64,000 nucleotides of DNA from the NCBI GenBank assembly GCA_947165895.1, contig CAMVCB010000002.1, forward strand, positions 186,001 through 250,000. The letters run 5' to 3'. The DNA is from an uncultured Treponema sp. GTDB lineage: Bacteria; Spirochaetota; Spirochaetia; Treponematales; Treponemataceae. Below, piece by piece: positions 32,096 to 48,585 of this stretch (positions are counted from its first letter, which is position 1; each line of letters opens with the position of its first letter). Both the position numbers and the translations under genes were made by a program. The notes under the pieces were generated by a model. That model searched no databases. It saw only the letters and a list, made by a program, of their open reading frames with translations, and was not told the origin of the DNA.

Positions 32096-32580
32096 TCAGC
32101 TTCTCCTGCGGCATTTTTGAGCACGTTGTAGGTATCCTTAAGGTTATAAAGTGCGTCATCGTAATAAGGATTGATGTAAACTGCCTGCTCAAAAAATTCT
32201 GCCGCTGCTTCGTAATCTTCGGTCTGGAAGCATTTTACTCCCAGAAGGTTCCATAAATGCGTATTAAGCGGGTTAAAATCCAGTTCTTCCTCGCAGATTT
32301 CCTGAACAAGATGATACTGCTTGAGGGTCAGGCTTATCTGCGCGTAGGTTTCTGCTACGTCATCATTGTGAGGGGCAATATCGTAGGCGCGGGCAAGACA
32401 GTCCAGGGCAGATTTAAGCTTGCCCATGTCGCGGTAGGTGACGCCCATATTAAACCAGAGAAGATAGTTTGACTGGTCGATTGTCAGGGCACGTTTAAAG
32501 CAGGCAATTGCTTCGGGAAAGTGACCCGCAGAGGCCAGGTGAATTGCTTCGTTGTTGAGTTTATCCGGCTGTTCTATCAT
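32059..32580 (-). CDS. TPR-repeat protein
   Basis: A 173-residue cytosolic protein made of four or five tetratricopeptide repeats: IHLASAGHFPEAIACFKRAL, LWFNMGVTYRDMGKLKSALDC, THLWNLLGVKCFQTEDYEAAAEFFEQAV and a further unit DDALYNLKDTYNV. TPRs bind other proteins; the partner is unknown. The start overlaps the stop of the polyprenyl synthase gene by four bases (ATGA), and its end overlaps the small membrane protein gene, so the three are one tight operon. Confidence 0.85.
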   Translation of the reverse strand: MIEQPDKLNNEAIHLASAGHFPEAIACFKRALTIDQSNYLLWFNMGVTYRDMGKLKSALDCLARAYDIAPHNDDVAETYAQISLTLKQYHLVQEICEEELDFNPLNTHLWNLLGVKCFQTEDYEAAAEFFEQAVYINPYYDDALYNLKDTYNVLKNAAGEAECLKKLKELNIK

Positions 32581-33623
32581 TTGTATGCCTTCGGAATCAT
32601 TGAGGTAAAGAGTTCTGTAATCAAAGATGAATTAAAGAAGGTGCAGTTTTCGGAAATGAGTTTTTTTCCTTCTTCTGCCGCTTTTTTTATACAGCCGCTC
32701 TTTTCCAGAAGTTTTATGCATTCTTCAACTGCAGGAGAGTCAATTCCTTCTTTTGAAGCCTGCTCCATCAGTCTTGCAATTTCCCTGGAATCTTCCGGGC
32801 AGCGTTCAAGGTGAATTAATACAGGAAGGCTCTTCTTTCCTTCTACAATGTCGTCTCCACGTTTTTTGCCGGGATTACCACTTGTAAGGTTGATTACATC
32901 ATCAATAATCTGAAAGCCCATGCCTATATTTGCAGCTTTTTCGCCGGCTTCTTCAGCTTTTTCAGGGCTGGCTCCTCCTGCCACATAGCCGATTTTAGCT
33001 GCCATACTGGCAAGGGTTCCTGTCTTACAGCGTACCATTCCCTGGTATTCTTCCTTTGTAGGAAAAAGGCTTGGCGTTCTGTGCCAGAAAATATCCATTG
33101 CCTGACCCAGGTGCAGGCGGCGCAGTTCGTTTGTGTAAACCTTGTAAAGTGTAAGCTTCTGCTCTTCTGTGATATCTGTAGTGTTTATGCAGACTGGTGC
33201 TTCAAAATAAAGCCAGCTGGCAGCGTTCAAGGCTGTGTCCAGTCCGTAGGTGATGTGGGCTGCAGGTTTTCCCCGTCGGAGGTCTGCTGAGTCTTCTATA
33301 TCATCGTGAATAAGGCTTGCAGTGTGTACGAATTCCACAAGCGGTGTAAGGGCATATGCCTGCTCAGGGGTAAGGGCTTTATCTCCATTAATCGCCTTTT
33401 GATTTTCATAGCAGAGAATGAGGAGAAGGGGACGCCATCTTTTTCCGCCAAGGTCAATAAGGTTTTTATTCGGTATAATCAGGTTCTGAATAAAGTTTTT
33501 TGTAATGGCCTGGGCAAGATTTCCAAAAGAATCCTTCTGCCATTTATCTGAGAATTCCAGACTGAGTGATTTGTTCAGTGCTTCCTCTATTTTTGTAAGC
33601 CTGTATAAAAATTCATTGTTCAT
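32577..33623 (-). CDS. Polyprenyl (geranylgeranyl/octaprenyl-type) diphosphate synthase
   Basis: A 348-residue trans-isoprenyl diphosphate synthase. The first aspartate-rich motif is LIHDDIEDSADLRRG, with GGKRWRPLL ahead of it. The second is FQIIDDVINLTSGNPGKKRGDD, where the usual fifth residue D is N (DDxxN), as also occurs in some eukaryotic GGPP synthases. It condenses isopentenyl diphosphate units into prenyl chains for quinones or cell-wall carrier lipid; chain length cannot be read reliably. Start at 33623 (MNNEFLYRL) is preferred to an upstream TTG. No ribosome site is visible, but a TATATA box lies eight bases ahead. First gene of the leftward operon beside the DnaA-box gap. Confidence 0.88.
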   Translation of the reverse strand: MNNEFLYRLTKIEEALNKSLSLEFSDKWQKDSFGNLAQAITKNFIQNLIIPNKNLIDLGGKRWRPLLLILCYENQKAINGDKALTPEQAYALTPLVEFVHTASLIHDDIEDSADLRRGKPAAHITYGLDTALNAASWLYFEAPVCINTTDITEEQKLTLYKVYTNELRRLHLGQAMDIFWHRTPSLFPTKEEYQGMVRCKTGTLASMAAKIGYVAGGASPEKAEEAGEKAANIGMGFQIIDDVINLTSGNPGKKRGDDIVEGKKSLPVLIHLERCPEDSREIARLMEQASKEGIDSPAVEECIKLLEKSGCIKKAAEEGKKLISENCTFFNSSLITELFTSMIPKAYK

Positions 33624-34029
33624 AAGAGAAGTATATAAAAGAATTGACAAAAAAACAAATTCTTGAATTTTTAAGGTTATTCACACTTTATTAACATCAA
33701 TTCACGGAAATTCCACAAGTTATCCACAATTAATTAAAAATAATGTGAGTAAAATTTGTGTCAATAGATTTTTTTAAAAAATTACAGAAAAATATAAAAT
33801 TTAAATATAAATCTTGTAATTATTGATATTATAAATAATTACAAGATTGAAAAATTCTTAGTATAGTAGTTTATGCCTTAAACTTTGCAAAATTAATGTT
33901 TCACATGTTATATTTGTGAAACACTTTTAACTTTTTATCCACAAGTTATCCACAATTTAAAAATACATATGTGGAAAAAAAAGGCGTCCTTCCGGTCTGG
34001 AAGAACGCCTGTAATGATCATTTTTTCTG
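33624..34029. other. AT-rich gap with DnaA-box cluster: candidate replication origin or DnaA-titration site
   Basis: No protein gene. Four perfect TTATNCACA boxes stand on the plus strand: 33677-33685, 33720-33728, 33935-33943 and 33946-33954. The last two are 11 bp apart centre to centre, one helical turn. Between the pairs is about 200 bp of extremely AT-rich DNA with a perfect 15-bp inverted repeat (aatcttgtaattatt, 33811-33825, with its complement at 33834-33848) and a gtttcac/gtgaaac repeat near 33899-33922. This layout (box groups flanking an AT-rich unwinding region) is that of an oriC. dnaA, dnaN and gidA are not in the window, so the call is tentative. Confidence 0.6.
33982..34012 (-). 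terminator. Terminator of STAS gene
   Basis: On the minus strand aggcgttcttcc pairs with ggaaggacgcct around five bases, followed by eight T. Confidence 0.9.
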
Positions 34030-34584
34030 CTAGCCCAGTGTAACTTCACCGCTTTCGTTGATTGCAAGAATCGAACGACAGCCTGAACATCTGAAACGAC
34101 CGGCTTTTGTTGCACGAAGCTTTTTGTTGCAGACAGGGCAGGAAATAATCAGCGGAAAAGATGATGCTGTTCCCGAGCTGTCTCCCGCATTGAAGTAAGA
34201 AATTGCTTCTTCTACAGTATTTTTAATATTAAAGAACTGAGAGAATCCAAGAAGCTGGAAAACCTCATATACTTTTGGCTGGATTTCCAGAAGAACTACA
34301 TCTCCGTTCTTTGGTTTTACAATTTTAAGGAAAACAGTAAAAGAGCCAATACCTGTTGATGATACATAGTTCAAAGCAGAGCAGTTGAAAACAAGATTGA
34401 TATAACCTGCTTCAATTACCTTGGTAATCTGCTTCTGGAAAAAACTTGAATTGTAGGTGTCTATGTATCCATTCAAATAAATAAAAATTCCGCGGTTAAT
34501 GCCGTCAGCTTTTTTGAGTGCAATTGAAAGACTGTCGTCTTTTTCATTGTCAAAACCTGGAATGATTGAATTATTGCTGTCCAT
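34030..34584 (-). CDS. STAS-domain protein with C-terminal zinc ribbon
   Basis: A 184-residue cytosolic protein. Residues about 20-130 form a STAS (anti-sigma-factor antagonist) domain: GIFIYLNGYIDTYNSSFFQKQI, then NLVFNCSALNYVSSTGIGSFTVFL, where the SSTG serine is the usual phosphorylation site, and EVFQLLGFSQFF. The last 40 residues hold CPVCNKKLRATKAGRFRCSGC, a four-cysteine zinc ribbon. STAS proteins of this type switch partner kinases or sigma-factor systems; the added ribbon is unusual and may bind nucleic acid or a protein. AAAGGT lies seven bases before ATG. Single-gene unit, next to the DnaA-box gap. Confidence 0.85.
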   Translation of the reverse strand: MDSNNSIIPGFDNEKDDSLSIALKKADGINRGIFIYLNGYIDTYNSSFFQKQITKVIEAGYINLVFNCSALNYVSSTGIGSFTVFLKIVKPKNGDVVLLEIQPKVYEVFQLLGFSQFFNIKNTVEEAISYFNAGDSSGTASSFPLIISCPVCNKKLRATKAGRFRCSGCRSILAINESGEVTLG

Positions 34585-46159: not shown

Positions 46160-46453
46160 CTAATTTAAAGCAAATTGATTTTTAGGAATAAATTCAATCT
46201 TAAGTTTCATTCCTAATCCGTCTGCAAGGCGTTTTAAAAGCTTGATTGTAGGATTACCAGAGCCATTTTCAATTTTACTTATGTCTGCCTGGGCAATTCC
46301 TGTTGTTTCAGAAAGTTGCTTTTGGGTTACATGGCAGGATTTTCTGGCATCAATAAGAGAAGAAATTATTTCATATTCAGGTGCGAGAGCGTCATATTCT
46401 TTTTTGAAAGATTCATCTTTCATTTGTTCGTTTAAGGCTTCTTTTAGATTCAT
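46160..46453 (-). CDS. HigA-like XRE antitoxin
   Basis: A 97-residue helix-turn-helix protein. The XRE domain (residues about 30-85) reads SLIDARKSCHVTQKQLSETTGIAQADISKIENGSGNPTIKLLKRLADGLGMKL, which is the typical antitoxin pattern. The start overlaps the toxin stop by four bases. It should neutralise the upstream toxin and repress the operon. Toxin-first order matches HigBA systems. Confidence 0.88.
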   Translation of the reverse strand: MNLKEALNEQMKDESFKKEYDALAPEYEIISSLIDARKSCHVTQKQLSETTGIAQADISKIENGSGNPTIKLLKRLADGLGMKLKIEFIPKNQFALN

Positions 46454-46821
46454 TTCTTTTCCTCCTCTTTTTGATGTCTGGCAATGTAATCTTTTCTATA
46501 GTCTTTAGCTTTCTTAATCTCTTCCGGCGGTGTTTTTTGAGACTTTTTTCTAAATCCGTGTGTAACAATTATTTTGCTTCCAACAAAGAAGAAATACAAA
46601 TTTCTTACAATATTGCTGCCTTGTTTTGTTCTAAGTTCAAAAATCCCGTCATCAAGATGTTCTGAATATGGCAGACGAAGTTCAGTTCCCTTTTCTTCCA
46701 GAAGATTTAAATCACGAAATGCCTTAGCTCTGAGTTTAATTTCAAGAGAATTTAGAAATTCAAGGCAAGGAATATCTCCTGATTTAGTCTCATAGAATTC
46801 CACTGTAAACTTATTTGCCAT
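46450..46821 (-). CDS. HigB/RelE-like toxin (phage Gp49-like)
   Basis: A 123-residue protein: FTVEFYETKSGDIPCLEFLNSL, then LRLPYSEHLDDGIFELRTKQGSNIVRNLYFFFVGSKIIVTHGFRKKSQKTPPEEIKKAKDYRKDYI. This is the Gp49/HigB pattern, where the ELR...R.LYFF and HGFRKKSQKTP words are diagnostic. Relatives are ribosome-dependent mRNA endonucleases. First gene of a two-gene operon with the XRE antitoxin, in an AT-rich region that looks horizontally acquired. Confidence 0.88.
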   Translation of the reverse strand: MANKFTVEFYETKSGDIPCLEFLNSLEIKLRAKAFRDLNLLEEKGTELRLPYSEHLDDGIFELRTKQGSNIVRNLYFFFVGSKIIVTHGFRKKSQKTPPEEIKKAKDYRKDYIARHQKEEEKK

Positions 46822-47353: not shown

Positions 47354-47368
47354 TTAGTAGGTTTGTAT

Positions 47369-47728
47369 ATGAAAAAACGAAGTGTTTTATTAATAATATT
47401 TTTTATTTTTAGTGCATATCTATTTTCTGAAAGTATGTATTACTATGGGAATGGATTTTCTAGTGCTGAATATAAAGGTACAACATCAACTGTAAGAGCA
47501 TATAATCTTTGGCAATATCAAAAACAGCGTGCTCATGCAAGGTTATATAAAGTTGAAAAGCTGACGGAAGAAGAACGTACTTTTCTGTGGGGCGCATTAA
47601 AAAAATATGATTATCGTTATGGCGAGGTATATTTCATTTTGATTTCTCCAAGTGCTTTTCAACAGATATTTATTTATGCGGAAATACAAAAAGATAAATC
47701 TCTTTCATGGTATGGTTGGAGAAATTAA
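47369..47728 (+). CDS. Small secreted protein, triplet family member 1
   Basis: A 119-residue protein, not recognised. Signal peptide MKKRSVLLIIFFIFSAYLFS is cleaved before ESMYYY. The mature part has EYKGTTSTV and then LTEEERTFLWGALKKYDYRYGEVYFILI, the block shared with the next two genes (consensus L-x3-E-x-FL-x2-AL-x2-Y-x3-x2-E-V/I-Y). The start at 47369 is preferred over TTG six bases earlier. No ribosome site is obvious, since the upstream TAGTAGG is weak. First gene of a five-gene unidirectional cluster. Function unknown. Confidence 0.7.
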   Translation: MKKRSVLLIIFFIFSAYLFSESMYYYGNGFSSAEYKGTTSTVRAYNLWQYQKQRAHARLYKVEKLTEEERTFLWGALKKYDYRYGEVYFILISPSAFQQIFIYAEIQKDKSLSWYGWRN

Positions 47729-47753
47729 TTATTATAAGTAAAAGGAACGAGAT

Positions 47754-48155
47754 ATGAAAATTAAAAAAATAATATTTATTTTTGTATTGTTTATAGGTTT
47801 ACTTATATCTATAAGTGCTACTGATATAAGATTTCACTCTGATTCGGGAAACGGATGGTATGGATATTCAGGTGCAGATTATGTTGGAACAACAAAAACT
47901 GTTAATCCAAGCCAATTTGCAGAAGAAGCTGAAAACCGTGCTGCAAGATATTTTAGAATAGTACGTTATTGCGAAAAACTTTCAAGACAGGAAAATTTCT
48001 TGCTTTGGTCGGCATTGAATCAATATAACTATTCTAACAATGAAGTGTACTCTGTAATTATACAACAAGGTGACGAATGTTTGAATCTCATTGTTGTTAT
48101 TAAAGATAATGGAAATAGTTGTGATTGGTATGGCGGTGCTTATTGGAGATATTAA
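47754..48155 (+). CDS. Small secreted protein, triplet family member 2
   Basis: A 133-residue protein. Signal peptide KKIIFIFVLFIGLLISISA ends before TDIRFH. It contains YSGADYVGTTKTV, then LSRQENFLLWSALNQYNYSNNEVYSVII, paralogous with its neighbours, and finishes CDWYGGAYWRY. AAAGGAACGAG lies seven bases before the ATG. The 25-base gap to the first gene and the 22-base gap to the third indicate one transcript. Function unknown. Confidence 0.72.
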   Translation: MKIKKIIFIFVLFIGLLISISATDIRFHSDSGNGWYGYSGADYVGTTKTVNPSQFAEEAENRAARYFRIVRYCEKLSRQENFLLWSALNQYNYSNNEVYSVIIQQGDECLNLIVVIKDNGNSCDWYGGAYWRY

Positions 48156-48177
48156 ATTAAAATTAGGAGTATTCTAT

Positions 48178-48585
48178 ATGAAATTAAGAAAGATTTTTTT
48201 ATTTACATTGTTTTTCTTTTTTACACTTAATTCAATTTTTGCAGCAAAAATTTACGAAGATAGAATAAAGGGGTACTCTGGTGCTTCTGGTGCAAACTTT
48301 GTTGGAACTAATAAAGATTACTCTTTTGATACGCTTTGCGAGTTCAGGGAAAATAGCCTTAGAGAAGAAAATAATTTTGGAGGAATTCGGAAAAAATTGA
48401 CGGAAGAAGAATTTTTCCTTGTAGAGTCAGCGTTGGGTGAATATTCAGTTAAAAAAGGTGAAATATATGAAGTTATCGTTGTACTTTCGAGAAAAGCGAA
48501 TAAGGTATTGTACGTAGAGGTTGAAATAGCTAATGCAAAAAAAGGTGGCTATTATTATGTAGCCTTAGAATCGATTCGAGGATGA
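48178..48585 (+). CDS. Small secreted protein, triplet family member 3
   Basis: A 135-residue protein. The start at 48178 has TTAGGAG eight bases upstream; a longer frame would overlap gene 2. Signal peptide MKLRKIFLFTLFFFFTLNSIFAA. It has YSGASGANFVGTNKDY and LTEEEFFLVESALGEYSVKKGEIYEVIVVL, matching the family pattern. It is the most divergent of the three, without the WYG ending. Function unknown. Confidence 0.72.
   Translation: MKLRKIFLFTLFFFFTLNSIFAAKIYEDRIKGYSGASGANFVGTNKDYSFDTLCEFRENSLREENNFGGIRKKLTEEEFFLVESALGEYSVKKGEIYEVIVVLSRKANKVLYVEVEIANAKKGGYYYVALESIRG

Follow-up and report, generated by a model that had tools for sequence, protein, structure and literature searches.

The 400-bp gap between a STAS-domain gene and a polyprenyl synthase gene in this uncultured Treponema sp. 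would be a non-coding locus, remote from the origin and dedicated to DnaA control, that either titrates DnaA or changes its nucleotide state. The sequence evidence gives this reading a probability of about 0.6. Such a locus probably helps to decide when copying may start. The window, which is the whole stretch of 64,000 nucleotides that was analysed (G000:C2:186001-250000), comes from a genome of 2,988,978 bases in 15 contigs. A first-pass annotation had proposed an oriC or a DnaA-titration site at this position. The oriC part of that proposal did not hold, and the titration-type part fits the conservation, the geometry and the neighbours of the site.

The DnaA-box cluster and its setting

The features of the gap and its flanking genes, in positions of the window, are as follows.

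32577-33650, - strand: polyprenyl synthase gene, the variable neighbour on the far side (PF00348, 191.5 bits)
33677..33685, + strand: outer left DnaA box, TTATTCACA
33720..33728, + strand: left DnaA box of the module, TTATCCACA, centre at -105 from the palindrome centre
33759..33764, - strand: TTGACA, possible -35 element of a polyprenyl synthase promoter, from reading the sequence
33816..33842, no strand: 27-bp palindromic motif, which here lies within a longer perfect inverted repeat with 15-bp arms (33810-33848)
33935..33943, + strand: first DnaA box of the right pair, TTATCCACA, at +110 from the palindrome centre
33946..33954, + strand: second DnaA box of the right pair, TTATCCACA, at +121 from the palindrome centre
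33974..34009, - strand: probable intrinsic terminator of the STAS gene, a G+C hairpin and, after it on the - strand, a T-run (sequence reading)
34030-34584, - strand: STAS-domain gene, the constant neighbour of the module (PF01740, 77.1 bits)

A scan located TTATNCACA on the + strand at 33677, 33720, 33935 and 33946, which agrees with the four same-strand boxes first described in this gene-free gap of about 400 bp. The starts of the last two boxes are 11 bp apart, i.e. one helical turn, as had been stated. The AT-rich core between the boxes (83.5% AT over 33729-33934) and the perfect 15-bp inverted repeat (AATCTTGTAATTATT at 33810-33824, AATAATTACAAGATT at 33834-33848) were also recovered, and both flanking genes lie on the - strand, so that there is indeed no strand switch. 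The whole window has seven copies of TTATNCACA, against 2.23 expected from shuffles. Four same-strand boxes is the highest count in any 278 bp of contigs C2 and C4 together (794,590 bp), and it is reached only at the window site. In 60 first-order Markov resamplings of 794,590 bp the maximum same-strand count was one (57 resamplings) or two (three resamplings). The four-box cluster is real and lies far beyond chance.

The product of the STAS gene has a C-terminal CxxC...CxxC stretch. By this gene, the closest named relatives among the matches listed are the uncultured rumen Treponema RUG517 (95% identity), followed by Treponema sp. JC4 and C6A8 (91%) and T. bryantii strains (79%). The module also contains a split parS-like palindrome, TGTTTCACA-N8-TGTGAAACA, at 33898-33923, and in several relatives GTTTCACG half-sites are repeatedly present close to the right box pair.

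Conservation of the module and the far-side gene

The same arrangement turned up in relatives when the gap served as a DNA query and the polyprenyl synthase as a protein query. In this module, an AT-rich palindrome (consensus in relatives TAAnTCnTTrTAATAyAAnGAnTTA) lies midway between same-strand DnaA boxes, which stand about 105-110 bp (about ten helical turns) away on each side, just 3' of the STAS gene. The STAS loci used for counting were the best 80 of at least 540, a sample biased to close relatives, and 77 of these extend 500 bp or more beyond the 3' end of the gene; L322, L348 and L366 were too short and were left out. In this best-80 sample, 52 of the 77 Treponema loci have the motif 3' of the STAS gene and 44 have both the motif and boxes on both sides, while 33 did not reach the score of a full module; the control on the 5' side of the gene gave 0 of 75. 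Boxes on both sides at 85-135 bp from the motif centre were found in 44 of the 52 motif loci of the same best 80, against 4, 5 and 0 of the 52 in the adjoining distance windows and 0 in 40 runs of resampled sequence. Exact boxes gather at -109/-110 and at +104 to +106, and second boxes often lie 11 bp farther out. The exact flanking boxes share one strand in every one of the 44 modules among these 80 loci, opposite to the STAS gene in 41 and inverted in three.

These counts depend in part on how the motif was defined. The motif matrix was trained on relatives' module loci found by polyprenyl synthase homology or by box pairs, with the window's own genome excluded. The motif was found in 47 of 60 loci drawn from loci of the training type, which are hence non-independent, and the matches at the origin are independent. 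Several of the named STAS loci among the best 80 of at least 540 are probably from the same species as training genomes. An exact box pair occurs in 64 of 200 genomes and in 0 of the controls, a count that includes places other than the STAS locus. Of 16 genomes chosen among those without an exact pair, five (G087, G113, G110, G115 and G114) have a motif of at least 13 bits 3' of the STAS gene, four of them with boxes on both sides, and the other 11 have no motif of at least 13 bits there. In addition, T. ruminis RU1 lacks the module in the STAS-locus scan, and G109 and G084 gave no sequence-model match at E<=0.1.

The palindrome was also considered as a structure in its own right. A hairpin or cruciform read-out was rejected, since 74.6% of cells were paired against 73.2% in shuffled alignments and the covariation was reached by 41 of 500 shuffles. 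The two arms vary nearly independently, which suits the half-sites of a dimer rather than a hairpin. A dif-like site was rejected as well, as the closed genome G090 has no match at E<=0.01 near its inferred terminus.

The gene on the far side of the module bears on whether the site is a DnaA-regulated promoter, at which DnaA would control the adjoining gene, here polyprenyl synthase, together with a second regulator bound to the palindrome. We consider this unlikely. The far-side gene in the 44 modules (from the best 80 of at least 540 loci) is polyprenyl synthase in 27, an LptF/G-like gene in seven and another gene in ten. A promoter would account for the 34 of these 44 in which the far-side gene, polyprenyl synthase or LptF/G-like, reads away from the module, and for TTGACA between the left box and the palindrome, which in the related modules seen occurs mostly where the polyprenyl synthase gene is downstream. 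However, the far-side gene varies, and in eight of the 44 modules of this best-80 sample, all within the ten "other" cases, it is convergent, so that no gene starts on that side. We take these convergent genes to include hisB-like and lon-like genes. Moreover, the module of G066 and G045 is still beside the STAS gene although the polyprenyl synthase gene of these genomes lies elsewhere, and in L305 and L308 the module is inverted. A promoter-only reading would need a gene start downstream of each conserved copy of the module, and was rejected on the eight convergent cases. Because the far-side gene varies and can be convergent, the module appears to be kept for itself and not for one gene. The polyprenyl synthase gene does start beside 27 of the 44 modules from the best 80 loci, so DnaA may act on its promoter too.

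The replication origin and other places of the palindrome

As first described, dnaA is not adjacent to the site; it lies on another contig (C4:29953-31413, - strand), with dnaN and recF on the - strand and gyrB and gyrA on the + strand as neighbours. The first-pass annotation had named a GC-skew minimum near 33.8 kb as support for an origin. This was not seen: the skew has the same sign on both sides of the site, being positive in 19 of 20 bins of 20 kb along 400 kb of C2 and -0.001 in the remaining bin, with +0.082 and +0.080 in the bins containing and following the site. The skew goes from negative to positive at dnaA/gyrB on C4, and a skew minimum elsewhere, such as at dnaA, was what the first-pass annotation had named as refuting an origin here. 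Sampled stretches of two closed relatives, G090 and G066, likewise place the broad switch in skew at dnaA and not at the module, which lies 863 kb and 474 kb from dnaA, respectively. The skew of G066 is weak, with opposite signs near the module (-0.017 at 440 kb vs +0.040 at 468 kb), and one sampled stretch of G090, at 2640 kb, has a skew of +0.049. These local sign changes were read as noise around the broad switch at dnaA.

The dnaN-dnaA gap of the genome contains TAGTAATAGTAATAATAG, which we take to be a DnaA-trio. Runs of at least five DnaA-trio units were found in 15 of 15 relatives' dnaA-dnaN gaps and in that of this genome; none was found in the window gap (33625-34029) or in the 24 modules scanned. 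The DnaA-trio is mentioned in the available parts of PMC5742627. A bacterial oriC with a DnaA-trio resembles the site in its DnaA boxes, its AT-richness and, within this genus, its palindrome, whereas the site has no DnaA-trio and no skew switch, and does not lie beside dnaA, dnaN or gyr genes. Thus, a main origin unlinked to dnaA has a negligible probability despite the four boxes around an AT-rich core and the palindrome common to site and origin, and it was ruled out by the GC skew and the missing DnaA-trio. A secondary or conditional origin, in use when oriC is blocked, would draw on the same boxes and palindrome, but is highly improbable given the lack of a DnaA-trio in the window gap and in all 24 modules.

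The palindrome is also present at the true origin of the same genomes. The matrix scan of C2 and C4 ranked first a place at the gyrA stop (C4:36028, 32.7 bits), second the window site (24.4 bits) and third the dnaN-dnaA gap (C4:29806, 19.5 bits), and the next place reached only 11.8 bits. A first-order null of 20 runs of 794 kb reached 22.4 bits in one run and 14.8 bits in another, so single weaker matches can be due to chance. A sequence model run over the whole genome also placed the gyrA-end copy first (30.4 bits). With only 17.8 bits (E = 0.013), the window site came third of the distinct places, below a tRNA/integrase site on C8 (19.6 bits); the dnaN-dnaA copy scored 13.1 bits. Among 19 genomes chosen regardless of the motif, 15, including G086, have a motif of at least 13 bits in the dnaA region that was fetched first; in the other four (G003, G110, G114 and G078) it stands in the adjoining gyrA/gyrB part. 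The origin motif of the relatives stands beside the DnaA-trio or directly after gyrA. In L417 (G088) and L420 (G098), two copies follow gyrA and adjoin parS-like sites. Seven places on contigs C9, C13, C14 and C17 of G162 have identical motif scores of 18.7 bits, which suggests a dispersed repeat carrying the palindrome.

A chromosome-organising or segregation site, with the palindrome foremost and DnaA secondary, would explain an origin copy near parS-like sequences and the half-parS-like GTTTCAC repeats near some modules. This appears improbable, however, as the placement of DnaA boxes around the motif is tightly constrained and no full GTTTCACGTGAAAC was seen on reading the window gap.

The palindrome also occurs beside tRNA genes, tyrosine integrases or both, at L224 (G000:C8:103344 and 103395), L228 (G000:C12:45945), L275 (G081; the neighbouring ORF has no Pfam match) and L281 (G052), and it is thus not specific to replication. 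At L227 (G000:C7:20495) the motif adjoins a GC-rich, partly inverted repeat that resembles an integron cassette array. C12 carries an element of about 22 kb at a tRNA-Arg gene. Its borders carry a repeated 45-bp piece of the tRNA end, and its integrase arm contains the motif. For this reason the palindrome was rejected as an integrase crossover core, which on C12 is marked by the 45-bp repeat. That the site in the window is an attachment site for site-specific recombination, or a relic of one, would agree with these locations but is very unlikely, since the C12 motif stands about 60 bp from the 45-bp repeated core at the tRNA 3' end and no integrase is among the identified far-side genes of the best 80 of at least 540 loci. 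A palindrome beside integrases would be expected of an IHF-like accessory factor; this is a lead and not proof. Tentatively, one dimeric protein may recognise the same palindrome at oriC and at the distant DnaA-box locus. This protein would be the genus's counterpart of IHF, coupling initiation with a distant shut-down of DnaA, and would have been borrowed by tRNA-targeting integrases.

Proposed function and known DnaA-control systems

In the proposed mechanism for a DnaA-control locus, a dimeric host protein would bind the palindrome and bend or bridge the DNA, which would bring the two DnaA-box sets together. DnaA would then form a head-to-tail assembly spanning the loop, similar to that on E. 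coli datA, and free or ATP-bound DnaA would fall soon after the locus is replicated, limiting re-initiation. The sequence cannot separate three versions of such control: pure titration (as in the B. subtilis clusters), ATP hydrolysis (as at datA) and, opposite in effect, reactivation through ADP release (as at DARS). The inhibitory versions seem likelier than reactivation, for two reasons: all boxes have the same orientation about a single centre, and the distance between locus and dnaA is 0.11-0.25 of the genome. These relative distances come from five closed genomes: G114 (0.11, for a motif found without flanking boxes), G115 (0.14), G110 (0.15), G066 (0.17) and G090 (0.25). The corresponding E. 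coli values, as given in Table 1 in the available parts of PMC5010248, are 0.10 for datA, 0.21 for DARS2 and 0.33 for DARS1.

On the best reading of these comparisons, the systems closest to the locus in their mode of action would be datA or the B. subtilis DnaA-box clusters. First, datA is likewise an off-origin, non-coding DnaA-box cluster in the origin-proximal part of the chromosome, with a single central site flanked on either side by boxes of the same direction. According to the available parts of PMC5742627, minimal datA is 183 bp, with its essential boxes in one direction and a single IHF site between boxes, and IHF serves oriC, datA and DARS2 in E. coli. In contrast, the central site here is a 27-bp palindrome, the boxes form two symmetric sets about 215 bp apart, and the neighbours and the phylum are different. 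Secondly, B. subtilis has DnaA-box clusters outside and proximal to oriC that are reported to titrate DnaA; the available parts of PMC5010248 and PMC5742627, with which the site was compared by description, do not mention a fixed central palindrome. Loss of a cluster of this B. subtilis type leads to early initiation. Third, DARS1 and DARS2 are off-origin DnaA-box loci, with architectural-protein sites at DARS2, but a core of three defined boxes with its own spacing is the DARS feature (PMC5742627, available parts). The locus is not assigned to datA or to the B. subtilis clusters because its central site differs and its activity is predicted.

The literature titles and abstract openings surveyed describe no off-origin DnaA-control locus in a treponeme. 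If the reading is true, the datA design would have a further, independent example in a group other than those that the available parts of PMC5742627 and PMC5010248 name. A module of fixed geometry with a palindrome shared with oriC would give a direct handle on how spirochaetes limit initiation, and the palindrome could serve as bait for the missing architectural or regulatory protein.

Elsewhere in the window, positions 47363-48585 are low in GC (about 31-35%) with a GC skew of about +0.23 and contain three small tandem look-alike ORFs of secreted type. Two adjacent small genes at 46160-46821 resemble a toxin-antitoxin pair of the HigB/HigA type.
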